DNA from: Chromera velia
Lineage: Eukaryota; Sar; Chromeraceae
Direction of reading: 5' to 3'
NCBI GenBank assembly: GCA_018398765.1
Contig: JAHBMJ010000214.1
Span: 1 to 53,782 of the forward strand
DNA: 53,782 nucleotides
The notes under the pieces were generated by a model, which did not search any database, had not been told where the DNA came from, and saw nothing but the letters and a program-made list of their open reading frames with translations. Made by a program: the position numbers and the translations under genes. Position 1 is the first letter of the stretch. Every line of letters starts with the position of its first letter. Positions 5,433-49,196 of the stretch are shown piece after piece.

Positions 5433-5678
<246 letters not shown>

Positions 5679-5757
5679 TTAAAAAATAACTTTTTAGTGA
5701 CTATGCACACAAATAATCTTAATTAATCCAATAGCCTCTCTTAAAAATTAAAATAAA

Positions 5758-5877
5758 TTAGAGCTCTTCATCTTCATACTCAATTTGAGGAATTACTGGC
5801 GTTTCTCTAAAGAGTACAGCAGAAATCAATACAATTAATGTCCCGAAAAGTAACGTACAATAAACAATAGTTTCCAC
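5758..5877 (-). CDS. psbT: Photosystem II subunit PsbT
   Basis: Single-helix PSII core subunit near the dimer interface. The 39-residue product starts at GTG 5877 and ends at TAA 5758. It reads (M)ETIVYCTLLFGTLIVLIS followed by FRETPVIP, matching the family pattern of a membrane helix and an FREPP-like motif. The acidic tail IEYEDEEL is longer than usual. No ATG is available in frame nearby, so GTG is the likely start. Confidence 0.9.
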   Translation of the reverse strand: METIVYCTLLFGTLIVLISAVLFRETPVIPQIEYEDEEL

Positions 5878-5982
5878 AAGTTTAATTTTAAAATTTTAGG
5901 TATAATCGTTAGTAACGGGTATAAAAACGTTCTAATATTTTTTTATTATTCTGTTAAACAGTAAAAAATGTTCTAGGACCAA

Positions 5983-6056
5983 GAGCTTGTAGCTCAATGG
6001 ATTAGAGCGTATGGCTACGAACTATAAGGATGGGGGTTCGATTCCCTCCAAGCTCA
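5983..6056 (+). tRNA. trnR: tRNA-Arg(ACG)
   Basis: Acceptor GAGCTTG/CAAGCTC, D-arm TAGCTCAATGGATTAGAGC, anticodon loop CTACGAA (anticodon ACG), T-arm with GGTTCGATTCC. It is the only plus-strand gene recognised in the left 31 kb. Confidence 0.93.
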
Positions 6057-7931: not shown

Positions 7932-8610
7932 ACTTCGATACATTAGATTCAAAACCAATCAGTTGTCGCGGAGATTTCTTGTAAGGATTCCACGAAGGCC
8001 TGCGTTGCAAAATATTCGCGAAATATCTAACCCATGCCACTCCTAAATCTCATCATAGTGTTAAATTTTTCTGGTTTAACTTATTCGGAAAAAGCTTTAA
8101 TTCTCTTGTCGTTCAAAGGCTTAATGACTTGCTGCACCTCCAACGATGTTTTAAATTTCTAAGACACATCTAAATTATAAAATAAAATTTTTAGTCTGCT
8201 TATGATTAAATCCCCAAAAATGGCCCCGCAACTCTTTCTCAGCATTTGAAAGTAAAGTACTTACCTCTACCCCTCCTTTGGTTTTATCCAAATACGGATT
8301 TTGCTATGACATGCTCTTGCTTTTGACAAGTTTAATGTTTGTAAACCTGTGAATCAGGTTAATCTTTTACTATATTTAACTATCTCCTGACAAATTCGGT
8401 AGGTTTTTAAGGTCCGAGTATTTATCGGTACAAATGTTGCGACTGGTTAGACTTCCCAAATACAGTAAAAATTCTACCTTTTATGTAATAAACACCTATT
8501 TTGAGTGAGCTATAAGTACTGGATTGCAATGATTTCTAAGAGAATTTATTTTGTTGTGCTGTGTAAGATTACGAAGGGCGTTAATTTTCGTTCTTCCTCA
8601 TATTTAATTT
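7932..8610. other. Non-coding stretch upstream of ORF316
   Basis: Apart from the possible N-terminal extension of ORF316 (to about 8040), no gene or RNA was recognised before the tRNA cluster. Confidence 0.4.
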
Positions 8611-8693
8611 TATACCTAGATGGATTTGAACCATCGATTCCATTTGGAGCTAGATTATGAGTCTAGTGCTTTCGACCTCTCAGCCATAGGTAT
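8611..8693 (-). tRNA. Class II tRNA with CAU anticodon
   Basis: Read on minus: acceptor ATACCTA/TAGGTAT, D-arm GCTGAGAGGTCGAAAGC, perfect 5-bp anticodon stem CTAGA/TCTAG around the loop CTCATAA (anticodon CAU), a long variable arm (stem TCC/GGA), T-arm GATGG/CCATC. Long variable arms belong to Leu, Ser or bacterial Tyr tRNAs, whereas CAU belongs to Met or lysidine-modified Ile, so the identity is unclear. A normal elongator-type tRNA-Met(CAU) lies in the same cluster. Confidence 0.85.
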
Positions 8694-8721
8694 CCTATCT
8701 TTGGTTTAATACATGCAAAGC

Positions 8722-8804
8722 TGAGTAGAGAAGGAGTCGAACCCACAAGAATTAAACTTCGTTATATTTTGAATATAATGCGTTTACCATTTCGCCATCT
8801 ACTC
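8722..8804 (-). tRNA. trnL: tRNA-Leu(CAA)
   Basis: Class II cloverleaf with acceptor GAGTAGA/TCTACTC, D-arm GGCGAAATGGTAAACGC, anticodon loop TTCAAAA (anticodon CAA), a long variable arm and T-loop TTCGACT. The T-stem has one mismatch. Confidence 0.92.
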
Positions 8805-8805
8805 G

Positions 8806-8878
8806 CGAGACTGGCGGGACTTGAACCCGTAACCCCTACCTTGACAGGGTAGTATTCTAACCATTGAACTACAGCCTC
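8806..8878 (-). tRNA. trnD: tRNA-Asp(GUC)
   Basis: Acceptor GAGGCTG/CAGTCTC, anticodon stem CTACC/GGTAG around loop CTGTCAA (anticodon GUC), T-loop TTCAAGT. It nearly touches tRNA-Leu(CAA), with one base between them. Confidence 0.94.
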
Positions 8879-8893
8879 CTTATTCATAACCCT

Positions 8894-8978
8894 AAGAGAG
8901 AAAGGGGTTTGAACCCTTGACATTGAACTATGTAACAGATTAGCAATCTGCCGCTTTCGACCACTCAGCCACCTCTCC
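8894..8978 (-). tRNA. trnS: tRNA-Ser(GCU)
   Basis: Class II cloverleaf: acceptor GGAGAGG/TCTCTCT with G-U pairs, anticodon loop TTGCTAA (anticodon GCU), long variable arm, T-arm AAGGG/CCCTT. It abuts tRNA-Met. Confidence 0.93.
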
Positions 8979-9052
8979 TGACTCTGGTTGGATTTGAACC
9001 TACGACCTTGGGCTTATGAATCCCATGCTCTAACCAACTAAGCTACAGAGTC
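8979..9052 (-). tRNA. trnM: tRNA-Met(CAU)
   Basis: Class I cloverleaf: acceptor GACTCTG/CAGAGTC, D-arm TAGCTTAGTTGGTTAGAGC, anticodon loop TTCATAA (anticodon CAU), T-loop TTCAAAT. The paired first acceptor base pair suggests an elongator; tRNA-Ile(CAU) cannot be excluded from sequence alone. Confidence 0.88.
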
Positions 9053-9082
9053 TTCGTGAAAACTTGTTAACTAATGTCTCTG

Positions 9083-9156
9083 GGCGAATAACGAGACTTG
9101 AACTCGTGAATCATGGTATCACAAACCATTGCCTTTACCACTTGGCTATACCCGCC
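9083..9156 (-). tRNA. trnH: tRNA-His(GUG)
   Basis: Anticodon stem ATGGT/ACCAT around loop TTGTGAT (anticodon GUG), acceptor GCGGGTA/TATTCGC preceded by the extra 5' G typical of tRNA-His, T-arm ACGAG/CTCGT. Confidence 0.94.
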
Positions 9157-9187
9157 TTGATAGATAAAAAATTTCCACTGAAAATTT

Positions 9188-9258
9188 AGACGATACTCAG
9201 ATTTGAACTGAGGATAGAGGATTTGCAATCCCCTGCCTTACCACTTGGCTATATCGTC
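9188..9258 (-). tRNA. trnC: tRNA-Cys(GCA)
   Basis: Acceptor GACGATA/TATCGTC, anticodon loop TTGCAAA (anticodon GCA) in stem GGGGA/TCCTC, T-arm CTCAG/CTGAG. Confidence 0.94.
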
Positions 9259-9265
9259 TCTGATA

Positions 9266-9338
9266 CTGGGATGGTAGGAATTGAACCTTACGAATGATGG
9301 AGTCAAAGTCCATAGCCTTACCACTTGGCTACATCCCA
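9266..9338 (-). tRNA. trnQ: tRNA-Gln(UUG)
   Basis: Acceptor TGGGATG/CATCCCA, anticodon stem ATGGA/TCCAT around loop CTTTGAC (anticodon UUG), T-loop TTCAATT. The T-stem has mismatches. Confidence 0.92.
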
Positions 9339-15037: not shown

Positions 15038-18000
15038 TTATGAAATGGTATAAGTAGAAACTTTAACGCCAAGTATACCCTGTTTGGTTTTTCAGGGCAA
15101 AGAAGCGTAACCTATCTGATCTGTTAGGGTATTTTTGGGTATGTTCCCTTTAAACCCAACGGCCAATTTTGTAAGCTTCGAGCGATCTGCTTTTTTACTT
15201 AAGCGGCCAGAAATTTTAATCAGAATGTCCGACATGATAGCAAGTCCCACACCTGCGGCCGCATTATACGCTCTTCGTTGTTCATTGACCTGAATTTGCA
15301 ATTCTCTTCCCACTCTTCTATAGGACATTCTATTACGTAGAGTAAAACCTACTTCATGATTAATTGCTACAGGATGTAAAAATGACATTTTAGTTTTTAA
15401 GTGTGAAATTTTTATGAAAATATTGGTTTTAAATTTGTACTCCATGTAAAACTTTCATTGAATAAATCGCCTAATAATCCGGGATCACTGGGTCCTAGCT
15501 AAAGTACCCCTTAATTTTACGGCTCAGGTCTCGAGTTTGGGCCCGATCTGATTCATATTTAACATTATATATTCTCAAAAATGTTGGTCTAATAACTGTA
15601 TTGTTCGAAAATTCAGACTTGGGGTATTGATTCGGAACTTTCTGACGTTTTCTCGCGCTTTTAATCTAGCTTTGTAAAAGTATCTGCGTTTAAAACGACG
15701 TTTCATTTTATATTGCACTAATGTTGTAGGCATCCGGAATGCCAACGGCACACTAATAACTTTAAGATACTTTTTACTTTTCTTAGCGGGCTTTCATGCC
15801 GCGTTACCTAACCCTGTTTTTCTTCCGAAAGAACGATGAAATACTGGGTTCTTATGGTATTGACGTTTAAGCAGCAAGCCGATGTGTCACGATCCTAAAA
15901 ATTTTAGTTTCCGGGGTGCAACCGGTTTTAACGAAATCATCTGAACTTGAAGTTTTCGTTGTAATCTTGTATAAATAACTTGGAGGTTTGTAGTAATAGA
16001 TGTATGATAAAGATCCTTACTTAAATTAAGAACCATTAAACGCCGAAGCATCTGATAAAATTTTCAAACAATAGACGTCCAGGTGGTCACGGGATACCAA
16101 AAACCTAGCGGATCTCAAGCATACCGAGGACTGTTTAAGATGGCTAGAGGAAATCAGGTTGGTTTATGTTGTTTCCCTTGATGGCCTAATTGACTTAAGA
16201 TAATTTTACAAAAAGGTGGGACCGTAGTTGAGCTCATACACCTAGGGGTTTTTTGTACATAAAAAGGACGGCTTGTTAGTCAAGTCCTAAAGTTTAACTT
16301 AGTTTTTTGTTCCAACAAAGGGTGAAAATATTCAATAGTTTCTAACGTACTAACCACTCACCCTCTTGGATCCCTTCCCCTCATTAAATATCGGTTCAAC
16401 CAAATCATTAAAAGTTTGTTTAAATATTTTCGATGTTTAGACTTAGCTTTGGGACCTCACCTAAGTTTATACAACTTGAGGATACCAACCGGAGGCCTCC
16501 ACCCATTGAAAATTAAAATATTTCTGCCGGTTTCATTTCCACTAAGCACTAGCCTTGGTAAATGTGTTACAACGTGGTGCCAGTGAAGCACAACACGCTT
16601 TTGAGGTAATGTTAATACCATCACATCCGCTCAGAGAAAAAGTTGCTCTACGTCAAGGTCTTGATGACTTACCCCTAAAAAATAACGCGTGACTTGACAA
16701 ACTTTTACAGAACCCATTCACAAAAAATTTTGTGATCACAACTCATCGTTACATAATTTCACAAGGATAAAATCAATTTTTAGGCGAAATCCAACTCAAG
16801 GCAAAACGTTTTGTTTTTTCATACATAAGATAAATTTAGATCAAAAAAACCTTCCTACATATTTAGCCCTCGAAGCTAAATAAATCAGTAACGATAAAGG
16901 CACCTCAGCTTTTCGACTCGTCAGAGAAGAAAAATATAGCTTTTTAAAATAATAAAGAGAAGTTTGGAGATAAAACTTTCTTATGTTAAAAATCTCACTC
17001 TTTAGCCCAATGAGCGGTCGTAGGTTTCACACCAAATAATGGGCCAGGGTGAGCGGATTAACATATGCGAATTGAAAAGTAGAGACACCTCGAGAACAAC
17101 TTGACTGAATAGCGCCAACTCAAAAACTAGGCAAATTTTCATACGCACTTTTAGAATCAAATTTTCATCATGATTCTCTAGTTAAACGAAGACACGGACT
17201 TAGGTCTTGATCCACAACATTTTTTTCATCCAACACTTTTTTAGATGAACAAACTTTGAAATTTAACTGCGTAAAGATAAGCCAATTACTTGTGAATCCA
17301 GGATGGAGTCTTCTTTCTCAAAAATAATAACAAAAGAATAGGGATCCGAGTTTTCTAAGAATTTTCATTGGTAATGTTAATACAGCTTGGGATTGTGCCA
17401 CTAATCAATAATCACGACAGGAACGTAGTCTGAAATGAAATCTATGGATTCAGTATCGAGACTTGTCTAGATTCGACTCTGGACCTTTTTTTAAACAAAT
17501 TGTTTTAGAGCAAGCTTCACTGAACCACCAACTTGGCCCAAAAATAAACCATAGTGACTTGCCGATTTTCGCCCGAGCCATTTTACCACCTAAAAGATTA
17601 GGAACCAGAACCTGTCTCAAGTTTAAGGCAGCAATTTTTTTAGCGGAAAGTGGTAACGCATTATGAAGTTTTACTATGTTATGCATCATTAAACACGGTT
17701 TAAGCCGCTTGAATATAGGGCCCTTGAAGGCACCTTGCTTTTTCGATAGGGCCTGTAACTTAAATACATACTGTAAAAGTGTCTTTTTGGATACCTGAAG
17801 TAAGACTCGATGTTTAGCTTGGAACTTTCCTGCGAGCGGAGTAGTTCTGGAAAACCTAGGATTGTTGAAATTTCTTGGGGTACCAAGAACTAAACTTTTC
17901 TGACTTTTACGTACAAACATCTCATGTGCAAAACTACCAGACCTAAAAGGAGCTAACTTTCCTTTTAACCCTTTCAATTCTTGGGTGGATGACACAAGTT

Positions 18001-18040
18001 TGGTTCTATGGTCAGGGAAAAAAACAATATCAGATTTCAT
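15038..18040 (-). CDS. rps3: Ribosomal protein S3 in a 1000-residue frame
   Basis: Small-subunit protein uS3 at the mRNA entry tunnel. I checked every in-frame codon from 15446 to 17449: no TAA or TAG occurs, and with the flanking ORFs the frame runs 1001 codons from ATG 18040 to TAA 15038. The S3 C-terminal domain is clear at the end: DILIKISGRLSKKADRSK near residue 940 and GILGVKVSTY before the stop. A motif like the S3 N-terminus, KKQNVLPWVGFRL (family GQKVNPxGFRLG), follows an internal ATG at 16822, so S3 proper may be about 594 residues with an internal insertion. The first ~406 residues are an unexplained basic part. Usual length is 210-240. Confidence 0.87.
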
Positions 18041-18121
18041 TCTGGATACAAAGAACCACCTAGATCACAAATTACGGCTAAAAAGTTCAAATTTTTTTCT
18101 TGTACTAGGCATAATGTCAAG

Positions 18122-21100
18122 TTAATATTTTTGATGACTTTCAAATTGTGTACCGCTTATAACGCAAGCTTTAGCATCTTGAATTCAGTCAACCTGATTT
18201 CATAATGAGGCTTTTATTAACGTTGCTGTTACTAGTCGAGCACTATATCCCCCGAGAACCCCATTTGCCAAGAGAGTTATCCTCGACATTCCTAAAACTA
18301 AAGGGACTACAAAACAAAGTTTAAATCCTAACTCGCCATAACTACGATTGAGTACTTGAGCTTCAGCCGAGGTTAAAATATCTGTTAGTTCTAAATTGGT
18401 ATCGCCCGGATCAAGTACACGCACCACCGAACTCATTTTTCGCACTAAAAATTCATAGTGCATATAAGGTAAAAAAATTCCACTTCGTTTGTATTGATCA
18501 ACTAACGATTCCAAAATAATCGTCTGTAAATAATGTTGCGAATATTTAAGACTTATAAATAGTGTTGAAAAGTTATAGTGACTATAAAACCTTTTTATGA
18601 CCATGGTTTGAAAATTAAGTGTTTCTGGTACAATATTATCTCCACCTTTCACAATTTCGGTTGGGTTTGGGAGCAGTGTATCAAGATTAGATAGGTGACA
18701 AGGAAGCGTAAAATAATTTCATGTGATCGGTCTGCTAAACGAATCGTTAAAGTGCTCATTTTTTAATAGTGAAAGTCGAGACTCTTTATGAATACTTTTT
18801 TGATCCTGATGGTTTCAAACTCTTTCTGCTAGGTGTTTCTCTGCCACTTTACAAGCATAAACGACTTTTAAAGCTTTTGACATTGATGCTGACCCTTTAG
18901 GTAATGTTCTCAGAAACTTGTATATGGGTTTTATAAATTTAGAGTAAGCCTTGGGGGTTTTTCTGTTTAACGCAGGAAAAGTTTTATTATTATCAGTTCA
19001 ATACCCTTCAGAAACTCCCGTATGTCTCAAATTTTGAACAAAATTATTTAACTGCTTACATTCATGACTATGAGAAGACTTTTGTGTTAGTGGATAAAGG
19101 TTTCTTCACTTCAACAGATTATCTATCTGGACTCGTCGCTGGAACTTTAATATAGGATACGATATTCAATAACCTTCGCTAGTAATCTGCCCGTTGATAA
19201 AACTATGTTCGGGTCTTAACTGATTATAGGATAATAACAATGTTTTTTTATATAACTTGTTATCCTTATCTTTTCATACATACCTAGTATTGTAAAAACA
19301 AAAATGAGTTTTTAACCATAACTCTCAAATCTGGTACCTATGCAACATCACTAACTTAGGATAATATCAAGTAAAAGGTTTAGCAGTTAATGTTTTTAAC
19401 CAAGAAAATTCTATTGTATCTTCTCCAATTAGGAAATTTACTAACTTTGAACCATAGACAAAATCTAAAGGATTGTAAATTTTGTTTCATCTTTGAAGTT
19501 TATTTCAGAAGAGCCGATTCAGAGAGTAGGTTAATAAGTTTTTAATTTCACTTATAAGCGATTGCGAACAGCTGAGATTTTTTAATTTTACATACAGTTC
19601 AAACTTACTAAGATCTTTTCCTAGGTACCGCAAAGAAGCTCGCATCTGCCTAAGTTTTAAACGAATTTTAGGAAGGTTGCTTGGGTCAACTTGTTCTTGT
19701 AACCAGCCTAAGTAAGAATAACTTCGTTGAATTCGATTAGCTACATTATCAGCTTTTCTCGTGCGTAGATAAATTTTAACGTTCTCTCGTGGTTTTCGAT
19801 CTACAACTTGTTTTAAAAAATCACTTCCACTCAATGGTACTTTTTCTGCCGTGGGTGAAGCTACAACTATCTCGTTCTTAGGATTTTGATCTATGACCTT
19901 AGCAGGAGGACATATATTTAGGCTTGAGACTCCTGGGTTCGGCAGCTTTTCATGGACAATACTCTTGAATTGAACGCGAGTCGAAACAAAATTTCTTGCA
20001 TTTTTTGTTGTTGGGAGTTGTCGAGTAGAAAATAATTTGATCTTCTTGTTGTTTCTGTTTATACTAAACGTTTGTGATATAGTGTTTGGCTCATGTAACG
20101 TATCCGAAGCTCCTTTCCTTTGGTCTTGATTTTTGAAAGCGTGATAAAATTTCGACATTTTAGACGTAGATCTTTTTTCCGGAAGGAAACCCACTATGCG
20201 CTTCGCCTTAACTTCTAGTTGGTGACGTTTAGCTTTTAGCTTGTCAACCTGCTTCATTTTACGAACTTTGCTTCTAGTGACACCTTGAAATGCTCCCGAA
20301 GGTCAATTCTTAGAATCCTTTACAGTCCTTTTTAAAGACTTAAGCATTTCTTTACTGCGACCCTTCGGGAACATAAGATCTTTCGATAGCCTACTTTGGC
20401 CGACAAAATTATTTCAGGTCTGCGTTGGTTTCCGTGGAGTAGAGAATATTTTATTTTGACTGTTTAACGTCTCTTGACACCTTGAACTCCTTAGTAGTAT
20501 CACTTTACTTGTGTACTTCGGACCACTTACGACTTCTTTACAGTTTAATTTCTGGCCTGAAACTTGTGCCACTTTCTCAGATTTTCATCTCGAAAAGCTC
20601 TGTTTTGAGTTTTTATAACCTTTATCTTTTGGCAATATAAATTTACCCTTCGACAGCCCCAATTGCTGGGGAGTATAGTCTGACTTAGCGTTTATTTTAA
20701 AGGGCAATTTTTTCTTTTTTGTGGGTTTTCTTTTACGTTTAGCGATCCCAACTTTACTGTCACCATCAGATCTAGAAGACAAACCTTCCTTCCTTAAAGA
20801 CTTGCTAGAATTCAACTTTAGAACCATTTGTGAAGAGGCTTTGACATCAGGCTCCACAGGGCCGAAGGACTGTTTTGATCCGCCCTTGTCCTCATTATCG
20901 CCAGTCAACGAGATTCCTTCTTGCTCATGAACCCAAGGTATAAATAAATCTAAAAACTGTCTAAAACTTTGTGTATTTATTAAGAGGTGAATCTTTCCAG
21001 ATTCATCTTTCTGCAAATGCTTATACTTTAATGGAAGACTTCACATAGCATTTTTTAGGACGAGTTTATATCTTTGATAGTCAGGGATTTCAGGCCAGCA

Positions 21101-24100
21101 AGACGTTTTGTGGGGAGTTGAAAATAAAAACCCTACCGTAGTGCTGAAAGATTTCAAAATAAACGAGTCGTGAACGATTTTATCATTTCAGATTTTAGGG
21201 CATACTAATTTTTTTATTCCCGAAGGTTTTAATAAAAGAGCTAATTGAAGACTGTTTTTGAATATACTACTACTTTTTTGGACCTTGAGTTGATTAGGCG
21301 TAAAGATACTAAGTCAAAGAGGAAGTGCTTCTGGTGAAACAGTCCATATATGGGGGCATCAGTCTGTCACTAAGCCAGTAACATCTGTCACTATAGACTC
21401 GGTACGGCTTTGCCGGGCTTCTACTACATTATCCATGTAACGTAAACCAGCGATTATATCAAAAGTTTTTTCGGGAGCGTCATAAGAAAAGTAATGCTTA
21501 TTGTGATTCCCACCTTCCCAAGGTATATAAGCTAAATAAGGTCAGTTACTTGGAAATGTTCAGGTTTTTAATGCTTTTAAGAAAGATCCTTGATTTTTAA
21601 CAAGTTTGCGTAACCCAGGAGAGCTTGCACTATTAAAATTAGCAACCCATCCGTATATATAAGTTTGAAAAATACCTTCATTTTCTCAAGAAGTTCACAT
21701 TAGTTTAGGAGAAAAGGTTAATTGAGGGTAAATTGACTTTTTATCGCAGTCCTTTTTCATTAAGTGTTGTCACGTGGGCTGCATATTTTGAGGCAGACCT
21801 TTCTCACACTGGCAAAGTTTTGGTACCACTTGTATAATTTTAAAATAATTCATATTTTGAATGCGTTCATTACTTCGGCTTGGTGTCGCTAAGCCTAATC
21901 AAATCTTAGCCTCTATAATAGTTAAGGGTTCCATATAATCACAATTTTGAGGAATGGATAAACGGTTCCCCGAATCTCCCATTACTAAACCCCCTGGACT
22001 AAATTTCCGCAGTTGGAATCTTTGAGTTAAACTATTGAAGGTGTAAGTTCTTGATTCTTTACTTTGCGATGTTCCCATACACCAGGTACCGGGCGTCATA
22101 CGGCGATAGTTTGCGCAAATAGACATTGGTACCTGATGCCCGAGAAAAAGTAGACCTTCAGGCTCCTCCGAGGTTCATCGATTAGAACCCTTAGTTTCAA
22201 TTGATTGTTGATTAACATTGGATATCGCTTCCGGTATGATTTCACTTTGCGATTGCACTCACAACCAAAACCATTTATGAAAAGCAAATGTTCACGAATT
22301 AAATATTTTTTTGCGGTAACTTAAAGTCAAATTATTTCGGTAGTGTAAACTATGGAGTCTAAAATTTAAAGATGAATGACCGTCCAAAATACACCAGGGT
22401 TTCTTTGTAGTGATCTTTAAAGGCGTTAAGATGTTTTCTGACCTTTGGGTGAAAAGATCAGACGTTGAGAGCTTCAAATAATTATAATAATAGAAAAGAT
22501 ACGCCAATGGGAATCAACCGACATTACGTTTAATTGACACGAAGTGTGAAGCCCAAGCCTTATGGTAGGGTCTTTGTTTAAAAGGATTTAAAGCATTAAT
22601 TGTTCCTTGCTTAAAACTTAAGCGTTTAGAAGACTTTTGTCTAAAAATCTCATAAGACAATGTTCAAGAACTAGCATAATAAAATTCTCAACTGAGCCCT
22701 GTTGTACGATCTGGTAAGTATAAGTGCTTGTCTTCCTGGCCAATTTGAAACGCGTTATTTAAAGTAATGCCTCTATATGCGTGACGTTTATTAGACCCGT
22801 CCACGAGATTTTTAAATGTAACATTAATCAGATGCGCACACGTTTTAGCATTACTCGTATTTTTGATTAAACCTGCTAAATTAGGGACGAAAAGTAATTC
22901 TTTGGGATAGGTCGTAAGACCCCCTTCCAAAATTCCATAGCGTTTTCAAAACACTCCTGGTTTTGAGAGTATACTTAAGCATATATTCTCGAATTTAATG
23001 GCTTGTGACTGAGTTGCTTCTAAATGTGTCTCGCCAAAAAGTTGGTCACTATGATAAGTCAAATTCCAGGCACGGAGCGAAGGGCTACTTGGCACACTAT
23101 GGGTAGTCATCAGACGACTTTGCGTAGAGACCCCTATGCCCCATCCTTTTGGTCAATAAGGTAAAGGGCCTGTTACTGATCCTTTTTCCACATCAGACAG
23201 GGAAATAAAAGCACCGTATTCATTTGTCAGAGTTAAATATAAGTTACTAGGACGCACCTTAAATTGTAACCTACTTAACCAGTCAGGAATCCGTGGATCG
23301 AAAGACGAGGAGGGGAGTCTAACAAGGAGATCTAAAAATCTTTGGAGCCATTGTGTGGTTACAGACGCAATATAAGCTCTTTTCTTTTTATACTTAAATG
23401 ATAGAGAATTATTAGCTGGCCAAATGTTATGCTGGGTATATGGAGTTCTTGTATCGGTTTGCTCCAAACCTAATAAATCAAATATTTCTTCTTTGAGCAC
23501 AACACCCCCACTATGAAATGTTCTCAGAACCATTTGAGTACAAGGTTCTCCCACACTTTGCCCAGCTAAAATCCCAATGTTCGTCGTAATCCGGTGGAGT
23601 TGGTCTTTACTTTTGAAACATAAGCCACAGCAAGCTTGACACAAATTAGTAAATCCTCAACATGTCAACGGAGATTTAACATCCAAAAATTCAGCATAGA
23701 GCAATTGCTTTAAAACCAACTTGGTATTCATACGATTTAAAACCGTGTTTCGGCTACAAAGAATTTGGCCGGTTTTTTTATGCATTATAGAGTTAGTTAT
23801 TAGTTTACCGTATAAAAGTAAAAAATCTAATGGCCTACAACTTCCTTGAATCCGGTTTCCTGCTGAAACTTTTAAATAAAAGCGACTGAAACACTGTTCT
23901 TCTTTAATCTTAAAATTATAACTAACTTCTATAAATCGCCTAGTCAAATAGCCTGCGTCCGCTGTTCTTAACCCCGTATCGACAACACCTTTACGGGCCC
24001 CATAAGAGGCTAAAAAGTATTCGAAAGGTTGAATTCCCTCATAAAAGTTATCCATTACCGGTAAACTTCCAATAATCCCTCGAGCATTAGCTGTAAATCC

Positions 24101-24538
24101 TCTAAAGTCAATAATTTGTCGAAGTTGTAAAGGGGTTCCACGGGCCCCCGTCTTTGACATTAAATTAATAGAGGAAGGAAGAATATGTTCTCAACTCGTA
24201 ATATTAAGTAAATTCTTTAAAAATTCTGTACGATCCTCGTAGAAGTTCTGCATATAATAGGCCATATAATCGTGACTGCTTTTGTAACCCTTAATCCCTA
24301 ATAGTAATCCACGATTCGGATCTGTACTTAATGTATCTTCGATTAATTTAGCCCCAATCGATACTTCTAAATCATCTAAATTTATTGAAACAAGATCGCG
24401 TGTACTGTATTCAAACCCCAAAGACATCATATCCTGTAAGTATTGTGGAGCACTTTCTTCCCCCCCGTAATGTTTTAAAAGTAAAATTAAATTTTCTACA
24501 TGCTGTTTGGCTTTTAGATTATTCATAAGTAAAATCAT
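18122..24538 (-). CDS. rpoC2: RNA polymerase beta'' subunit RpoC2, enlarged
   Basis: C-terminal half of the split beta' subunit of the plastid-encoded RNA polymerase. The frame is 2139 codons (UGA=Trp); the parts between standard-code ORFs were checked and hold no TAA or TAG. Conserved N-terminal third: GARGTPLQLRQIIDFRGFTA, SYGARKGVVDTGLRTADAGY, and NIGILAGQSVGEPCTQMVLR with the FHSGGV motif. Residues ~470-1950 are poorly conserved and hold Lys/Ser-rich low-complexity parts. The C-terminus returns to family sequence near residue 1970 (RSGIFLPYMHYEFLVRKMSS) and ends with the W-rich VDWIQDAKACVISG segment. Start ATG 24538, stop TAA 18122, 82 bases before the rps3 start. Confidence 0.95.
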
Positions 24539-24625
24539 CGACTAAAAAATATTATTTTCAAATGACTTTCTTACAGAAATGCTTGTTTTGACAAAAATGT
24601 TCTATCAAGGCGTCACTAAGAATAT

Positions 24626-27600
24626 TTAACAAAGATTAATTATAAAACTATTCCTTCAATTAGGACCAGGAAATCGTTTTCAAACCACAGATGAACTAAT
24701 AATTTCATATGGCGTAAAGCCCGACGAAGATTCTCTCTGTAGATTATGGAGATGAGGCACAGTAGCTTTTATTTTAAACTTTTGAAGTTTTTTTCAAAAG
24801 AGCTGTGTATAGATATACTTCACTAATTCTTTATTTAAATAAATATTTTTTAAAATATGGTTTAATGAAGCACGGTAGGGAGCCACCCGGACAGTATCAT
24901 AGATACTACAGACGAGATTTGGCGCATAAGTCATACAATTGTTTACTAAGATATGTTTCTGTGTAATTAATTTGCGGGCTGCTAAAATAGACGGGGCAAA
25001 ACCGAGCCTATAAATTAAACTATCTAAACGAAGTTCTAATTTGGCTAATAATTTTAATTTAAAATTAGCTTTAACACTATCTCGGCGACGAAGGTAATTT
25101 TTTAATTGATGATCGGTTAGATTATAGTAAAATTGAATTTTTTGTTTTAACTTTAACCGATGCAGAAAAAGTTCTTTTAATTTTAACCCTCAACCTGTAT
25201 CATAAATTAACCGATAGGGAAAACAACTTAATCAGCGTAAAAATCCTAACGGATGAATTAATCCCCGCTTAAAATTAGAGTAAAAAACTAACAGTTTACA
25301 TTTTAACTGATATAATCCTTTAATCCCATTTCGTCAACGTCGTGTTTTCTCATCAGTATGTTGCCCAGGGAGCATAGGCACCCGAAAAGGGCTTGGTATA
25401 GAAGGTTGCTTTAACTTAAGGGAGGACAATTGATTATATTTATACATTTTAGCTCACAGTTGACTAATACTATGCCTGTAGATGTGATAAAATACTTGTA
25501 GCCAACGCCTCATTTTCTGCTCAATAAAAAAACTTGTCCCATTCAAAGGTTTTGACAACAACATCAAACTTTCGGGTTTTGCTGTTAGATGTAAAGGGGC
25601 AAGAAGATCTTTCATTTCATACATCATTGGTTTATTTTTGACAGTTAGTCTAGAAGCCGTTTGGTCTAGAATAGCTAAACGCTCTGCTAGCGGAGACTTC
25701 GTATTCACCACGGGGTAAACTTCCAACCGCGGTTGGGTTAGTGTCTCACAAGAAGGCCTCAAAACTAAATGGTGTACCGGACTCCGCTCTTTGGAAACAC
25801 GCCCATTTCCTACACTATCTAAAAATCTAAAATACCTGTACAAACGTAGATTCTGCTGCCTTTTATATTTAATTTTTTGTGAATTAAGTCAACGATAAAA
25901 AGTAATTTTTTCTTTACACACATAATTCCTTTTCGTCATCTTTATAAAACTAGGAAAAACCGAAATTCAAAGCCTTCGCCCCGGAAAAAACATGTTGCGA
26001 TAACTCAAGGAAGTTTCTGTTCTCGGCACTTTTAAAAGTTTACCAGGGCGCTTATACAATTTTGTACCATCTCTCCTCATTAAATCTCCTCAGACAATTC
26101 TAGACCTGTGTGATGGGCGCTTTGGGAGCCGTGGACGTTTAATCGGCACCTGAAAAATCCCTCGTATACTTCGAGCCCGGCCATGGTGATTTAGTCAGAA
26201 TCGGTTACAATAATATAAAATCAATTTAGCCTGTATTAAATTACGGCTGCGGCAAAATCGAAACTGCGAAGAAAGCTTAGGGATAGGTAGGTCTCAATTA
26301 TGGTATGTTGTTGGGGTCTCGAATTTGTTGAGTCTATAAAGATTCGTGTGGTTAAAATAGAATCTGGGTTCGACGACCTGAGATGAATTCGAAAGCATAT
26401 TTCGACCGGCCTCGAAAAGTAGACGACCTCCAGGAAAAAAGCCATCTTCTTTTCTTACGTAATTGAAAAAGGGTTCTGAATTAGAAAATATAAGTCGCTC
26501 CCGTCCGCATGTGTTAAGGTCGGAAAATTGAGCTATAAAAGTCTTCAAATGCTTGACTGTTCTTCGCAGCACTTGTGATCTTATGAGTGACCCATAGTTG
26601 CTTTCCGAGTTTTTAACTCTAAAAAAGACTTGGCGAGCTACTCGTGATACTTTGTTATTCTGTAACGTCAGATCTAAAACGCCAGAGGATATAAAATCAG
26701 AATTTAATGCATAAAATGTTTTTGCTTTTGCCTGGTAAAAATTGAAAGGAAACGATACTAAACCAATAAAACCACCTCGGTAACGAAATACATTATCAAA
26801 AGTTTTAGTGAGACGATTAACGCTACTCAATATTTTTCCGGATCCAAAGGTGGCAGGCACTCTCTCTATGCACGGAATTTGAAATTTAGTACCTCTGCCC
26901 AAAGACTTGACTCGGTATTTGTTAGCAAACCGAATCTTATTTCAGTAACTAAAAAAGGATAAATCCCGCGTTGTAATACCACCAACTTTTGTTTGGAACT
27001 CCGGTTTTTCTCTACTTTCACACAACGTTTTCTGCGTTTCTTTTCAAGTCTGCAATCAGGAAACTAAAAGTAGATCATCACACAATTGAGGACAAAGCCC
27101 CTGTTTTACTATTTGTAACTGCCAAGTTTTACTTCATAGGTGAGATCATTTCTTAATAAACAAATGTTTCATAAATAAATTAGTCCCTAAAGGTAAAAAA
27201 GGTAGTTGTCGATCCAAATTCTGTTTCTTGTATTTAGAAATACCATGTTGAAAAATGAGGTTTAAATCATGGGCTTTAGATTTACGAGCCGGGTAATGGC
27301 TAAACTTTCGCTGCCAGAAAAAAAACCATGGGCATTTCGGATAAACTTTAGTCTGAAGAGCTTGAAAAATCTTTTGTGGCGTTATTCGCGTTCGTTGAAT
27401 CGGCTTATACTCGACATCTACCATTAAAGTAACCTCTCGGGATAGCCGCTTTCATTTTTTTCACTTAGGTATATCAACCTCATCAAATCTATAATCATAG
27501 AGGGATTTATAAACCGGGTCATAAAGGAGCGTATTTTTATATCTTAAACCAAGATATAAGGATCGGTCAATATCTGCTCAAAAGTTATGTAAGAATTTTT

Positions 27601-30600
27601 GCGGTCGTCACGTTTGAACTCGTGAAGGAAATTCGGACCGTGCCAGTTGTAATAAGTTTGCGTTTGAAAGATGGACTAGGTTGTTTCATTTACGCTGACT
27701 GAGCACAGCAGGTTTACGCGGCGCTTTATACCATCAGTTGGGCATATAAATTTTAGGTCCTTCCAGTCAAAGACTTTTGTTTGTTATCTTTCGAAGAATA
27801 TTCTGAGGGATAGGTTTTCTTGGGTTGATCGGTCAGAAGCGATGAAATCATCAACGTTTCTGCCAAGCTTTATCATCCATTGAATTAACGACTGGTAGTT
27901 CATACATAACTCGAGGTGATATGTGTTTTCATGTTAATAAAGTACTAACATCGTTGGTCTTTCGCCTTACTCGTGAATCAAATCATTGCCCTTGAAATCT
28001 AGGTCCAGGCCAAATTTGGTTTTTACCTTTGATCTGCAACGCCAACGTCATATAGAGTGAATAAGGATCGAAAAGTAACCGGGGCTTATAAACTACCGCC
28101 GAATTCAAAGGTAAACTGGAATCTGCCTTATATGTACTATGAAATAGGATTGGTACAACTGAGGATTTTAACCTGTCCACTTTTCATAGGCTGGAAGTTT
28201 CTGCATCATAGAAATTACCCACTGACTTACGGATCAGGGATTCCCTAGAGTTCATCTTTCGCCTTTTGAAGCTACTCTTATTGGGATTGGTCCGTAATCT
28301 CAGTTTTTCATTTTGAGCAAATCAACTATTTGATTTTAGTATACTATCCAAGACTGGTTGTAAGGATTGAAGAAAACTGTGGAAAGCCTCAAGTCCGTTT
28401 GGAATATATTCTTCTCTCAAAACACAGCCAAGCCTTTTTTTGTTCTTATGCAAGTACTCACGACAGTATATGTCTTTACTATTAAATTTTTTTCAAGTCC
28501 AAAGGACTTTTTGAAGTTTAATAATTTCTCTCTTAACGTTCGGGGTGTAGAAAGATGAGTGCCCAAAACGGCTGGAAAGTCAGGATTTACGACGACTAAT
28601 TTCTCTTTTGACATCTTCCATTAAGTCGCTAATTACTTGGAACCTATGCCAAATATCTTCCATAGGTATAGTATGAGCTTTTAAATTGAAAGGCACAACA
28701 TATCGGTCAGTCATAGAGAATGGTAGTACAACGTGCTTATAAAGATCTATGAGGTAAGCTTTTTGGGGTTTCGATCAATTACGCCAAAATTTCTGAATGT
28801 CCTTAATTCTTCATTTCATAATTAGCTTGTCTTCCTTTTCAAGGAATGAATTCGCTCAGAGCTGTAAGGGACGAGAGTTTCATACTGATCTCTTAAACTT
28901 AGTAGTTTGAGGAGTTTCAAATTCTAATACTTGGTAGGGATAATTTACCGTGTTTCTCATTTGTTTTATGAAGCCTCCAAATCCATACTTCGATTTCTTA
29001 TTGTTAGATATAAATGAGGCAAGCGGAGGCTTATGTATTATTCTTCTTTTCTTTTGCGGTTTTTTGTCCATTTTAAGAAATTTCTTTTCATAGAACTCAC
29101 TCACTCGGTTAATTTTTTCCTGCACTTGCGCTCGAAGTCAATAAAATGAGCTATAGCGCACGTTTTTTCAGTTTTTATTATTTCAGACAGAACGAGCATA
29201 TAGTGATTTATAAAGACTACCTACTTTATGGCTATAATTTTTAAGCAAAGTTCCATAATTTTTTGATGCCGTATTCTTAAGCATTTCTGTATATTCAATA
29301 TTGAGCTCATTAATCTGATGTCCCGGCTTTAATCAATTTTTAGAAAACTTACGCTTCCAATTTTGTCGACGTTTGGAAAACGAACGCTTCAAATGCGTTC
29401 GTCGGTCGAGGACGTAATGATGTGAAGTTTTTGATCTTTTTTGTGGAGAACTATTGTAAGTGTGCAGTAATGTATAAAAAGATCCTACATTATAAATGTA
29501 GTTTTGAAATATTAATGCTTTAATAAGACCAGTCAGTTTTGTTAAAATAAGCCGTGCCATTAATTTCTTGTATAAACGAGGAGCTCTTAGTTTCAGTACT
29601 TTAGAGTTAGCATAGTAAGCCTTGAGTTTGTTAATTGACTGTCCAATACTGAATTTTGGCGAACTATTTATTAGGCATGTTTTTTGAGAGGCCCCGCGAT
29701 AAATTTTTCAGAGATTATACGCGGAAACATTTGCTTGTGAATTTACAAATGTATAATAACGAGGGAGTGTAGGAATATCACGATTGAGTTTCCGATCACA
29801 CATAAACCCATAATTTCTTCCTTTAAAATACTGCGCCGACTTTTTACTATCACATAAAAATTTCGGGAACTGCAGTGTTTGTTTCTTTATAGACCGAAGA
29901 GCAGCTTTTAAACGCTGAAATCTCTTAATCAACTTAATGAATCTTAGGGTTCGTGAGAAGATTATCTGACTCTGGAAAGTCCCCTTACATAGCATCCACT
30001 TTGCGATAGTTTGAGGTAGTATTCACTCGCGCGTATTGTACTTACGCTTGTATAAATATTTTGTAAAGTTGTTATAATTTCTTAAAATTAAAACAGCCTC
30101 CCTATCACCACAGAAGGACGACAAAGTTTGAGCTCCAAAAAATTCTAAATTGTTTGGACGAAGTGTAAAACTCATTAGGGAAGTTTTAACCGCGCTTAAA
30201 TGAATCGAGCGTCGTAAAACTTTAAATAGACGATATTTTATAACGTTATTGATAAAGCTCATTTTATTCGGAAATGTGTAATAACTTTCAAGACCTTGTG
30301 TTTTATGACATCAAGTCTGGGGGCGCAATAGTGGTCCCATAATCTCCTGACGACGTATAGGTGAAGTTTGAGGTAATCGCTTAGATCAAGGAACAGTAAT
30401 TTTTTTTAAAGCTTTTATATTACGTCTATAAATTCTTAACATTGTTAAGCATTCGGGAATGGAAAGTGTTTTTAATCGTTTCCATAGCGCTTGCCAGGCA
30501 AATCTATAATCATATCTTGTTGTAGAAGGGTAACTGTAGATTTTTCCTTGGGCATCGTCAAATGGGTCAGGTCCCACAGGTCCTATGTTAACGGCAATAT

Positions 30601-30847
30601 GACTTATGGAGTAACTACGCAAAACCCAGAAATAAGCTTGTATTCGTTCTCGAAGTTTGCGTATCCTAAGCTTTTCTGGTAAACGCTTAAAGGGAAATTG
30701 CTTTCAGTGTCTTACAACTTTGGGGGTACCTCCAGGTAATAAAGTAAGATGTAACTTTCGTAAAGTTTTTATTACACTTTTATAAGTGTTTTTAGAAGAT
30801 CTTCGGGCAAATTGTTTTTTCTTTACAAATTTTTTAGAGGGTATACT
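24626..30847 (-). CDS. rps4: Ribosomal protein S4 at the end of a 2074-codon open frame
   Basis: Small-subunit protein uS4, a primary assembly protein. The last ~270 codons are S4: the LPGQH motif, KQKIQFYYNLTDHQLKNYL (family EKQKLRxxYGLxERQ) and LELRLDSLIYRLGFAP with KHILVNN, the S4 RNA-binding domain. Upstream of the S4 part, the segments between standard-code ORFs were scanned base by base in this frame: no TAA or TAG from 24629 to the TAA at 30848-30850. The 30847 boundary is the frame limit; no ATG lies near it, so the true start is unknown. An internal ATG at 25447 would give a 273-residue S4. The ~1800 upstream codons are basic, rich in Phe, Ser and Arg, and unrecognised. Confidence 0.82.
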
Positions 30848-31503
30848 TTAATTTAGCTACGTAAAGTCTCTTAAGAAAACAATAAGTCGACAAACATACA
30901 ACAAACTTTGACCAACTTCTTGATTACAAGCGACTTCAAGTATTGCAAAAATGTCCCATTTTATTTTTAATGCTTTTTTCTACGTATTCAGCATGTAAGC
31001 TCTTAGAAAATGTTTTGTTGCTATCATTTCTTTTTTTAGCCATTTGTTTATAACTACTTTTTAAAAAAGATAATTTTCTTTCATTCAATTTTTGCTGAAC
31101 CTAACATGGATATTACCCCTTTTAAATAGACCTACAAGAAACCTCGCAATCAACTTTACATAATTATCAAGGTTTAAGAAGTAGCTTTACGTAAAGACGG
31201 GAAGTAAAATAAAATGGCCACTCACTACTACGGTTAAAGTAACTTCATATCTGTCCTCCCTCCTGTAACTCAGTCTACTTGGGTTGCAAACATAAACCTA
31301 CGAATCACAAACTGTTACGTTATCGACCAATTTATAAGAGCAAATTTAAGCTATAAGATTGACGCGATTGGTTGTTAAAAAGAGAAACAGCTAAACGTAG
31401 CTCTTCACTCGTTGAGTTCCGCCTTAATTGCTAAGTCAAAAAATTTTGCCTTTGATTAAATATCAGATACGCTCTAGTAATTGGCTAGTCAAAGGTTCGA
31501 CTA
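30848..31503. other. Strand-switch region without a recognised gene
   Basis: Minus-strand genes end to the left and plus-strand genes begin to the right, so divergent promoters are expected here. A 39-codon minus frame (MAKKRNDSNK...) near 31040 is too short to support. A His-like anticodon loop (TTGTGAT) in a degenerate tRNA-like context occurs near 31290-31330 but no cloverleaf forms. Confidence 0.45.
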
Positions 31504-31740
31504 GGGAATGTGGTGAAATCGGTAAACACAACGGACTTTTCTTCCCAGCGAGATATTAGCACTCAAGCTTACGAACTAATAAAAACTAATGTAACACACG
31601 TGAGAGCGGCTTATCCCCGGAAGAGCAAGAGACTTAAAAGCTTTATACTACAAAATAGGCCTCCAAGTCCTTTTTATTTCGCACTTATGAAAATCCGTTG
31701 GCTTTTAAAAGCCTTGAGGATTCAAGTTCCTCCATTCCTA
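31504..31740 (+). tRNA. trnL: tRNA-Leu(UAA), intron-containing
   Basis: Exon 1 31504-31538 (GGGAATG acceptor, D-arm GTGGTGAAATCGGTAAACAC, ending CTT) and exon 2 31690-31740 (AAAATCCG, variable arm TGGCTTTTAAAAGCC, T-arm GAGGA/TCCTC, acceptor CATTCCT). Joined, the anticodon stem ACGGA/TCCGT encloses loop CTTAAAA with anticodon UAA. The insertion point after the anticodon U is where the ancient plastid and cyanobacterial group I intron sits. Confidence 0.9.
31539..31689 (+). other. Short intron in trnL(UAA), group I by position
   Basis: The 151-base insertion is preceded by U and ends in G, as group I introns do. Plastid trnL introns are usually 200-500 bases; this one is short, and I can only faintly see core-like sequence (AGAGACTTAAAAG). 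Group I membership is inferred from position. Confidence 0.65.
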
Positions 31741-31766
31741 CATTTAGTTTCTTCAGCACATATAAA

Positions 31767-31840
31767 GCACTCTTAGTTTAAGTGGTGAAAACATAGATTT
31801 TCAAAATCTAGTATTAAGGGTTCGAGTCCTTTAGAGTGCG
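31767..31840 (+). tRNA. trnW: tRNA-Trp(UCA)
   Basis: Acceptor GCACTCT/AGAGTGC, anticodon stem TAGAT/ATCTA around loop TTTCAAA (anticodon UCA), T-loop TTCGAGT. UCA pairs with both UGA and UGG, matching the in-frame TGA codons at conserved Trp positions throughout the window. A standard plastid tRNA-Trp has CCA. Confidence 0.92.
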
Positions 31841-31843
31841 TTA

Positions 31844-31916
31844 GGGAGTATAGCTTAGTTGGTAGAGTATAGCTTTTGCAAAGCTATGGTCCGGAGTTCA
31901 AATCTCCGTGCTTCCA
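31844..31916 (+). tRNA. trnA: tRNA-Ala(UGC)
   Basis: Acceptor GGGAGTA/TGCTTCC, D-arm TAGCTTAGTTGGTAGAGTA, anticodon stem TAGCT/AGCTA around loop TTTGCAA (anticodon UGC). No intron. It is not beside rRNA genes here. Confidence 0.93.
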
Positions 31917-35585: not shown

Positions 35586-36086
35586 TAAAAAGTTGCGATC
35601 TAAAGAATGGAGGCTTACGTGCCATAAATTTTTAGTGCAAAAAACGTGACTTCCGCAAGTAGTGATGTTGTCAAACTACCGGTGTCAAGCTTGGCTCAAA
35701 ATAGCATAGTGAATTGATCCAAGTGTACCACGCAAATCGTGATTAAAACGTATTAAGCTAGTCTAATTTCCTAATCACCTTATAAAAAAATAACCACTTA
35801 AAAAAATTTGAACTATATCCATAATATATAGTTACCTTGCAATAGTAAGCAAATTCCCTAACGACAAAAGAAAAAAGAAAGATACCGTGGAGACTGGCTT
35901 ACTAACTTTCTCCGTAACATGGTCATTTTTTGTTTCCTATGGTAAGCAAATTCCCTAACGATAAAAGAAAAAAGAAAGATACCGTGGAGACTGGCTTACT
36001 ACCTTTCTCCGTAACATGGTCATTTCAAAAGCCTCCTTTGTTAACTTTGTCTGTTTTACAAATAAAAAAGAAAACTAAAAATCAGT
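35586..36086. other. Non-coding stretch with a tandem direct repeat
   Basis: No gene seen between secA and rps14; the main content is the two-copy repeat listed separately. Confidence 0.5.
35845..36026 (+). repeat. Two tandem copies of an ~84-base unit (period 97)
   Basis: Copies start with GTAAGCAAATTCCCTAACGA at 35845 and 35942 and end GTAACATGGTCATTT. They differ at only two or three bases, so the duplication is recent or maintained. Each unit contains a purine-rich run and GGAGACTGGCTTACT. No coding potential is evident; a regulatory or recombination role is possible. Confidence 0.93.
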
Positions 36087-37170: not shown

Positions 37171-37324
37171 TACAATGGGTCGTTTTTAAATAAAATGCGT
37201 GGCTACTGCTTCTCATTAATAACTTTAAACTTGAAATTCTTAGACCTTATCCTGATTGAATGATTTTTTTTAGTTAACAAACTTTTTTGTCGTTTTTATA
37301 AAAAAGCTTAAAACTCTTTTAAAA

Positions 37325-37714
37325 TTGTCTTTAGAAGCAAAAAAAGCTAACCCATCTCCACCCGTCGGTCCTATTTTAGGTCAATATGGTGTGAATTTAG
37401 GCCTTTTCTGTTCTACCTATAACGATCTTACTAAAAATTTGGAAGGAATCGTGCCTGTAGAAATCTCTATCTTTAATGATAAAAGCTTTACTTTAAATCT
37501 TAAAACCGCACCGACCAGTATTTTATTGCTTAAACAATTAAAAAAAACCAAAGGATCTAGTAAACCCAATTTACAGAAAATTGGCCAATTAAAGATCTCA
37601 GAATTATTCCCAATTGCAGAAACTAAGTTAAAAGAATTAAATACAAAAAACCTAACCCAGGCTGTCTTGAGTATTCAAGGGACCGCTCAAAGTTTAGGAA
37701 TTAGTATTGTGTAA
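37325..37714 (+). CDS. rpl11: Ribosomal protein L11
   Basis: Large-subunit protein uL11 of the GTPase-associated centre. The 129-residue product has the N-terminal motif ANPSPPVGPILGQYGVNL (family ATPAPPVGPALGQ.GVNI) and the C-terminal segment VLSIQGTAQSLGISIV (family xIxGTARSMGIxV). An in-frame TAA at 37310 restricts the start; TTG 37325 is the best candidate, so a few N-terminal residues may be lacking relative to the family. It lies 42 bases upstream of rpoB, an ancestral order with rpl1 lost. Confidence 0.92.
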   Translation: MSLEAKKANPSPPVGPILGQYGVNLGLFCSTYNDLTKNLEGIVPVEISIFNDKSFTLNLKTAPTSILLLKQLKKTKGSSKPNLQKIGQLKISELFPIAETKLKELNTKNLTQAVLSIQGTAQSLGISIV

Positions 37715-47504: not shown

Positions 47505-49196
47505 ATGTCAATACCTTCCGATTTTGAACGTAACCAGTGATCAAACCTGCCCAACCGCAAAGCATCTTCACGACACAAAAAGGTTAGAGATAATCGTCCT
47601 ACTACCTCTAAAACTACTAATTTTAGTGTTTCCCAGAAACCTTTGGGTAAGCAAATACCAGAATCGAGGACGGTAGAAGGTCCATTTAAGAAGCGGAAAC
47701 CTTATAAATGAAAGAGCAAAAGGTCTGAAGTGAGAACAGCTGATACAAAGGCTTCTTCTTTGGGTTTAACATCGTTCAAACTAACAAAAACAAGGAACTT
47801 TAAGACACTGTCGGGGCAAAAAGGACCAGAATTGAGGACGGCTGACGTCCCATTTAAGAAGCTTAAACCTTATACACCAAAGAGCAAAATTTCTGAAGAT
47901 AGACCAATGGATAAAAAGGCTTTTTCGTCCGTGGCCGCACCGTGAAAACCAACCAAAACTATGACCTATAAGGTCTCTAAGAAACTTTTCGGGAAAAAAG
48001 GGCCAGAATTGAGAATGGTCGACGTCCCATTTAAGAAGCCTAAACCTTATAAATCCACGAGCAAAATCTCCGAAGGAAGACCAATAGATAAACCTTCGGG
48101 GGCGACATCGGTCAAACTAAACAAAACTAAGAATTTTACTGTCTCTGAGACCATATTAAGTCAACAAAGATCAGAATTGCCCGCGTTAAAAAGCCCAGAG
48201 AAGAAGGAGGAAAGGTATGAACCAAAGAGCAAAATTTCGGAAGGTAGACCAAATGATCAAACAACGGCTTCAGCGGGTAATTCATCTTTAAAATCCACAA
48301 AAAATATGAAAATTGACGTGCGCGGCGCAAAAAAAAAGAAATCCTGGGATCATGTTAGTCGAATGATTCAAATGTATAAATCTACCGTGTGACGCCCAAC
48401 GCCTAAAGAGTTATATAAAACGAATTATTTTACGGATTTTTTTGATGCGTATCCTGCCTTTAGACGAATTTTAAAACAGGATCAAATGGCAATCATTATT
48501 TTATACTTTCAACTGTCAAGAAAGAATACTAAGATTAGTATAATTCAGTCTAATGAAGCGATTCACTTAAAAGTTATTCGAACCATTGATGCTACCACTC
48601 CTTTGTATGGAGAGGTAGCAGTTTTTAATTTAGAAAAACGATTAGAAGGACTAAGATTTTTACCTCAGACGGTCAGCTTTAATGAATTATATATTCAAAA
48701 ATATGCTATTTTAGCAAAGCTAAAAACCTTTATCACTTATTATTCGCAAAAATGAGCAAGTGAAACGTTTTTAAACTGAAGTCATCCAAAGACATACTAT
48801 TTTTTACATAAGTATAACGTACCATATGATTATTTAAAAACGTTTAATTTTGACGATTTAACACAAGCATTTCGTTTACCAAAAAGAAAATTTGTTCGAC
48901 GTTATGAACGATTACTAACCTGTTTTACTGCTGGAATGCTACGTTTAGTAGGTAAACGCCGGAGTACCCCTTTTGCTGCAAGAGAAATTACATCTAAGGC
49001 TATTCGTTATATACGAAAACATGATTTTGTTTATGTAAGAGTCTTTTTTCGTGGAGTTTCAGCTAATCGAACTTACATTATTAGGACTTTATTTTCGACA
49101 AGTTATTTTGGATCAGCTTTAAAAATTCTATCTTTAGCGGATATTACTTCCGCTCCTTATAACGGCTGTCGTCCAAAAAAATATCGTCGCCGGTAA
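47505..49196 (+). CDS. rps11: Ribosomal protein S11 with a repeat-bearing N-terminal extension
   Basis: Small-subunit protein uS11 of the 30S platform. The C-terminal ~90 residues are S11: FTAGMLRLVGKRRSTPFAAR (family SSAGxxGFKGxRKSTPFAAQ), ITSKAIRYIRKHDF, and the end DITSAPYNGCRPKKYRRR (family DVTPxPHNGCRPPKRRR). The frame is continuous from ATG 47505 to TAA 49196 (563 residues; usual 130). Residues ~50-260 contain four degenerate repeats around GPELRxxDVPFKKxKPY and SKISExRPxDK. A further ~100-residue insert seems to split the S11 core before the STPFAA part. TGA codons at 47943 and 48390 are Trp. Confidence 0.87.
47640..48275 (+). repeat. Degenerate in-frame tandem repeat inside rps11
   Basis: The anchor CAGAATTG/CAGAATCG recurs at 47659, 47827, 48004 and 48172, spaced 168, 177 and 168 bases (multiples of three). 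At protein level the unit is roughly GPELRTADVPFKKLKPY plus SKISEGRPIDK with a variable linker TSxKLTKTxNF. Confidence 0.88.

Follow-up and report, generated by a model that had tools for sequence, protein, structure and literature searches.

A reading frame of 6.2 kb that ends in the gene for ribosomal protein S4 (rps4) raises the question of what its long upstream part is: an N-terminal extension of S4, kept or cleaved off, a separate gene that runs on into rps4, or sequence that is not translated at all. The frame lies on a contig of 53,782 nucleotides (C213) from a 177.8-Mb assembly, and this whole contig is referred to here as the window. A second plastid contig, C4040 (64,104 bp), overlaps the window; our analysis of C4040 covers its first 30 kb, and bases 30001-64104 read N.

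The window carries atpA, petB, secY, secA, atpI, rpoB, rpoC1 and rpoC2, as well as ribosomal protein genes, a content that marks the plastid as photosynthetic. A plastid-encoded secA is a pointer to the red lineage. C4040 holds both rRNAs, as well as a frame of 175 codons that reaches a stop after covering no more than the N-terminal part of chloroplast AtpB; no second AtpB part was seen in readable plastid DNA. Searches of the assembly gave no match to the PsaA/PsaB (PF00223) and photosystem II (PF00421) families, which possibly lie in the part of C4040 that reads N (30001-64104). Many conserved genes of this plastid are open solely if UGA is read as Trp, and we infer that the following tRNA does so:

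31767-31840, plus strand: tRNA with anticodon UCA, given the label tRNA-SeC by ARAGORN and regarded here as a UGA-reading tRNA-Trp

Excerpts of earlier reports describe a split AtpB, a split PsaA and a linear plastid genome in Chromera (PMC5643376, PMC5404108), and likewise the use of UGA for Trp (PMC6722601). Split AtpB and UGA=Trp together indicate that this is very probably the plastid of Chromera velia, or else of a close relative. Repeats of ~127 nt surround tRNA-Lys at 1-127, 52867-52993 and 53378-53503; they are inverted between the contig ends, with two direct copies at the right end and one copy on C4040, so that copy number differs between the contigs. A 92-nt direct repeat (35837-36025, plus strand; spacing 97 nt, 95% identical) lies between secA and atpI.

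The rps4 frame and its upstream part are as follows:

24626-30847, minus strand: complete open frame of 2,073 sense codons and a closing TAA, with UGA read as Trp
25448-30847, minus strand: N-terminal extension of 1,800 codons, including any untranslated leader before the true start

Read from 30847 to 24626, the frame contains no TAA or TAG before its closing TAA (24626-24628), and the preceding TAA upstream is at 30848-30850. Under translation table 11 it is interrupted by many TGA codons, the longest ORF being 202 aa; with TGA read as Trp it is open throughout. The other five frames of the same DNA contain 106, 157, 120, 71 and 119 TAA or TAG codons per ~2,073 codons. In 200 trials with first-order Markov sequences of the same composition, the longest open run averaged 136 codons and reached a maximum of 254, and the probability of 1,800 stop-free codons is ~1e-40. 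An earlier, sequence-only reading of this DNA had argued that a frame of 6.2 kb free of TAA and TAG cannot be due to chance, and the contrast between zero stops and the 71-157 of the other frames bears this out.

S4 itself is recognizable close to the 3' end of the frame, and a possible remnant of its N-terminal region precedes it:

24788/24809 to 25168 (approximate), minus strand: recognizable S4 core, uS4 model positions ~45-164, identified by TIGR01017, NF003717, PDB matches and fold
25169-25447, minus strand: possible N-terminal region of S4 in divergent form, beginning at ATG 25447; a PGQH motif begins at 25369

TIGR01017 and NF003717 match frame residues 1893-2012 with E ~5e-22, both below their cut-offs; searched against the whole frame, TIGR01017 scored 78.4 bits (cut-off 177.2) and aligned over positions 45-164 of 200 only. 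The S4 RNA-binding domain, PF01479, scored 34.4 bits against a cut-off of 22.8. The best PDB matches of the S4 part were chloroplast uS4 chains. An AlphaFold2 model, built with 33 cyanobacterial S4 sequences, had a confident core, with pLDDT values of 82-92 in ten-residue blocks across residues 141-200 and a mean of 54 over 273 residues, and its two best Foldseek matches were chlororibosome uS4. A TIGR01017 profile search of the assembly found no S4 besides this rps4. Since the core is clear and no other S4 was found by TIGR01017, we class the rps4 product as a highly divergent uS4. The sequence-only reading had placed S4 in the last ~270 codons: it was right that S4 sits at the end of the frame, but recognizable S4 covers only ~120 codons, and the figure of ~270 corresponds to the 273 codons that separate ATG 25447 from the stop rather than to a recognizable domain.

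The frame has no clear counterpart of the usual S4 N-terminus. The S4 N-terminal domain PF00163 scored 14.8 bits (cut-off 23), over positions 52-95 only, and a PF00163 profile search of the assembly gave no match. Across the whole frame, the top match to the N-terminal profile is the PGQH motif, 26 residues past the Met at 25447 (domain E 0.42, P 0.036). Because an S4-type PGQH follows this Met at 26 residues, 25447 is a candidate ancestral S4 start, in which case ~55 divergent residues would lie ahead of the core; the internal S4 start that had been proposed near 25447 is thereby plausible as the old start, albeit weakly so. Placing the S4 N-terminus directly before the core with MAFFT did no better than shuffled sequences (P 0.31). 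We also considered an insertion instead of an extension, in which the giant frame would open with the S4 N-terminus, and rejected it: the N-terminal profile had no match at that end.

What the upstream part encodes was addressed by homology searches. In Pfam, the matches of six overlapping chunks of the extension, with E allowed up to 5, were all weak and unrelated (SEA, E 0.012 and 0.022; DUF6170, E 0.033; DUF5638, E 1), and neither NCBIfam, searched with three overlapping chunks, nor PDB gave a convincing match. In viral_contigs, the S4 end had eight pattern matches, none of them confirmed, and the extension had none. We therefore rejected a hidden second gene upstream of S4 that Pfam, NCBIfam or PDB would recognize, and the earlier statement that the upstream part matches nothing known to that reader holds for these collections and for the assembly. 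Duplication of plastid DNA as its origin was rejected likewise, with no credible match in the window, in the readable 30 kb of C4040 or in the rest of the assembly. The best outside nucleotide match was 27 bp at C4040:10897-10923 (E 0.004); others were a 28-bp match within the extension of rps7 (E 0.023, found again in the overlap at C4040:177-204) and one of 23 bp at 19492-19514 (E 0.023). We take these matches of 23-28 bp to be chance. The rps4 extension contains no internal repeat, and structure prediction of 1,200 of its residues folded alone (mean pLDDT 31) was informative neither way.

We then looked for signs of translation in codon use and charge, comparing each segment with null sequences from a second-order Markov model of that segment in which in-frame TAA and TAG were avoided; the codon model was trained on twelve conserved segments of the plastid. 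The rps4 extension scored 0.076 bit per codon above its stop-free null (z 4.3), with significant signal in the first third (z 2.9) and the last (z 3.1) and none in the middle (z 1.3). The S4 core scored 0.22 bit above its null, and atpA, secA, rpoB, rpl5 and rpl14 scored 0.24-0.27 bit above theirs, values flattered by membership of the training set. Other extensions tested scored 0.10-0.19 bit above null, so that among the segments tested the rps4 extension ranks lowest, with a codon bias about one-third that of conserved genes. In a leave-one-out control, in-frame scores were above zero for all 12 conserved segments (+0.05 to +0.26) but slightly below zero for the extension (-0.03 to -0.09). 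The in-frame score of the extension nevertheless exceeded those of frames +1 and +2 in all four quarters of the extension, in one of them only marginally; in the first two quarters it was about equal to that of one antisense frame.

Net charge of the extension is +13.3% of residues against an expected 8.7% (z 4.4). Charge excess was found in the extensions of S3, S4, S8 and S17 (z 2.0-4.4), and was absent from those of S7 (z 0.4) and S11 (z 0.3), from the S4 core (0.8) and from rpo segments (-1.9 to 0.9). What looked like a second, 95% identical copy of the rps7 extension on C4040 proved to be an overlap of the two contigs, which do not differ before the tRNA-Lys repeat is reached, and is therefore unusable as a test of selection. 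Judged by its codon use and charge, the rps4 extension looks translated, weakly constrained and biased towards basic residues.

These signals bear on the possibility that the upstream part is untranslated, whether as a chance frame, an assembly error, an intron or a recent pseudogene. Such an origin would account for the weak codon bias and the missing homologues, but it conflicts with the signals of codon use and charge and with the chance estimate of ~1e-40. Moreover, sequence errors usually break frames rather than create long ones, and no intron family reached the Rfam gathering score in the window, nor was any found in 30600-31900 at E up to 5. We consider an untranslated upstream part highly improbable.

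If the extension is translated, the next question is where translation begins. The frame contains 33 in-frame ATG codons, the first of which lies well inside it:

30440-30442, minus strand: first in-frame ATG of the rps4 frame, with 135 stop-free codons before it

The chance of 135 stop-free codons before the first ATG is 0.001, so a non-ATG start farther upstream is likely; TTG 30622 and several ATA codons are candidates. The predicted mass of the product would be 239 kDa from TTG 30622, 232 kDa from ATG 30442 and 32.5 kDa from ATG 25447. Two other frames, rpl11 (37274-37714, plus strand) and rps12 (50536-51051, plus strand), contain no ATG at all and have ATA and ATT at the position of the first residue of the family model; both genes likely use non-ATG initiation. 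Around the 3' end of the SSU rRNA (C4040:20301-20460), CCTCC, CCTC and CTCC are absent. The anti-Shine-Dalgarno sequence thus seems to have been lost in this plastid, which makes an internal start within the frame by Shine-Dalgarno pairing unlikely. Excerpts of two studies report that RNA editing was undetected in chromerid plastids (PMC3894158, PMC5404108), and a stop created by editing is therefore also unlikely.

An internal start is central to a reading in which S4 is initiated separately at ATG 25447 (or 25375) and a fast-evolving upstream gene runs on into rps4 without a stop of its own. The S4-type PGQH 26 residues after Met 25447, where the frame also has its best N-terminal-profile match (P 0.036), fits this reading, and a fast-evolving separate gene would show the same missing homologues and weak codon use. 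However, stops between the upstream gene and S4 would then be harmless, yet there are none; no anti-Shine-Dalgarno motif was seen near the SSU rRNA 3' end; and with 33 in-frame ATG codons the Met at 25447 may itself be chance. We regard separate initiation as unlikely. The sequence-only reading had offered two options, a giant S4 fusion or an upstream gene with an internal S4 start. Both were reasonable, and of the two it is translation through the whole frame that the sequence favours; a separate gene that lost its stop is weakened by the lack of any homologue and by codon use far weaker than that of conserved genes.

Through-translation is favoured because nothing else obvious would keep 1,800 upstream codons free of TAA and TAG. 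S4 is presumably essential and is encoded last in the frame; if translation starts near the 5' end, a TAA or TAG anywhere upstream would remove it, and selection would then keep the frame open while tolerating most amino-acid changes. On balance we lean towards rps4 encoding a single very long polypeptide with a weakly constrained, basic N-terminal extension that is retained. According to this model, ~1,800 codons of basic, weakly constrained sequence were fused in frame onto the N-terminus of S4, translation would begin at a non-ATG codon near the 5' end of the frame, the whole frame would be translated as one chain of ~230-240 kDa, and the extension would stay on the ribosome, this last being the least certain step. 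Several results count against a giant chain. The middle third of the extension has no significant codon bias, and the S4 core and the S7 and S11 extensions have no charge excess; the TIGR01017 score is below cut-off, and in two quarters the in-frame codon score is about that of an antisense frame. ATG 25447 also appears to lie near the expected old S4 start, as internal initiation needs.

All evidence for through-translation fits equally well with a precursor or polyprotein, in which cleavage of the one chain would release a near-normal S4 of ~30 kDa along with one or more unknown basic proteins; a product beginning at ATG 25447, at 32.5 kDa, would have about this size. Against cleavage stands an extension in which neither a cleavage signal nor a conserved domain was recognized in the Pfam and NCBIfam searches, and we think a cleaved precursor rather unlikely.

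The preferred reading, a retained extension, can be set beside other oversized genes of the same plastid, two of which follow rps4 directly on the same strand:

18122-24541, minus strand: rpoC2 frame (2,139 codons), immediately downstream of rps4; a large middle part of it is unrecognized
15038-18121, minus strand: rps3 frame of 1,027 codons, with S3 homology at residues ~898-1023 only

The rpoC2 frame and the 1,027-codon rps3 share one reading frame, with a lone TAA between them (18122-18124, minus strand). Long stretches outside the family match also occur in the frames of rpoB (1,427 codons), rpoC1 (1,354), rps11 (564), rps7 (451), rps8 (383) and rps17 (225). With unrecognized stretches in so many frames, rps4 is one case of a feature common across this genome. 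Within the rps11 extension, a unit of 168-177 nt occurs in four in-frame tandem copies (47630-48260, plus strand); their spacings of 168, 177 and 168 nt are each divisible by three, which illustrates one route by which such extensions can grow. On C4040, a frame of 1,570 codons (4568-9280) has a ClpC-like AAA_2 domain near its C-terminus only, following a long unrecognized N-terminal part, and an open frame of 1,186 codons (25432-28992) has no Pfam match at E up to 0.05.

Among ribosomal proteins, frames exceed their family model by at least 100 codons for six of nine small-subunit proteins (S3, S4, S7, S8, S11 and S17, the remainder being S2, S12 and S13) and for none of six large-subunit proteins (L3, L5, L6, L11, L14 and L16), with excesses counted from stop to stop and hence upper bounds. 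The difference between subunits has a one-sided Fisher P of 0.017 (two-sided 0.028), for a pattern that had been noticed before testing. The count comprises 15 ribosomal proteins and includes 8 of 23 N-free frames of C4040 that were scanned; L3 and S13 were matched in part only, and the L3 length used is one that we take to be correct. An rps19-like frame without a long extension (C4040:28908-29357), recognized by eye, was left out, and its inclusion changes the small-subunit count to 6 of 10. The bias of extensions towards small-subunit proteins is a testable lead. The SSU and LSU rRNAs fit their models end to end (1,597 and 3,061 nt). We therefore found no support for the idea that protein growth compensates for loss of rRNA, both plastid rRNAs being full-length relative to their models.

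Should the extension be translated and kept, S4 would be ~10 times its normal size and, in its usual place on the small subunit, would lie close to where the mRNA enters. The plastid would then illustrate how large a core ribosomal protein can become without loss of rRNA, and it would provide a clear case of low-constraint protein kept open by an essential downstream domain. To our knowledge, no single ribosomal protein carries a larger addition. A further suggestion, more tentative than the giant S4 chain and in our view doubtful, is a protein-armoured small subunit, in which up to ~4,000 extra residues would be carried by S3, S4, S7, S8, S11 and S17 alongside full-length rRNA, with no comparable growth of the large-subunit proteins; the figure of ~4,000 is an upper bound from stop-to-stop frames, and nearly half of it falls on S4. 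If true, the added protein would have a mass comparable to or greater than that of all the protein in an ordinary 30S subunit. Extended small-subunit and RNA-polymerase genes beside six unextended large-subunit genes make a specific prediction for the plastid ribosome.

Janouskovec et al. reportedly found in 2013 that transcription in the C. velia plastid supports proteins extended by hundreds of residues, which would make rps4 an extreme case of a known kind. Split AtpB and UGA=Trp indicate the same plastid, and here the unrecognized part is about nine times the length of S4. A giant S4 is not mentioned in titles and abstract openings among the matches listed for the Chromera velia plastid literature on rps4, rpoC2 or the extension of ribosomal proteins, nor is the length of C. 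velia S4 in the corresponding excerpts of the Chromera rps4 literature.

Extended ribosomal proteins are also found in spinach, where the extensions sit on proteins of ordinary size. A study in spinach describes chloroplast-specific N- and C-terminal extensions of plastid ribosomal proteins (PMC5071890). The frames described here are likewise enlarged at the termini, but 1,800 codons fall on one protein and, unlike in spinach, small-subunit proteins are extended while six large-subunit proteins are not. The mitoribosome of Tetrahymena, according to excerpts of its description, has a protein-rich small subunit, mostly through added proteins in rRNA-poor regions (PMC8998825). Both are alveolate organellar small subunits enlarged by protein, in our case as predicted from genes; in contrast to Tetrahymena, the extra sequence in this plastid is fused to the core ribosomal proteins themselves, and the rRNAs are full-length.
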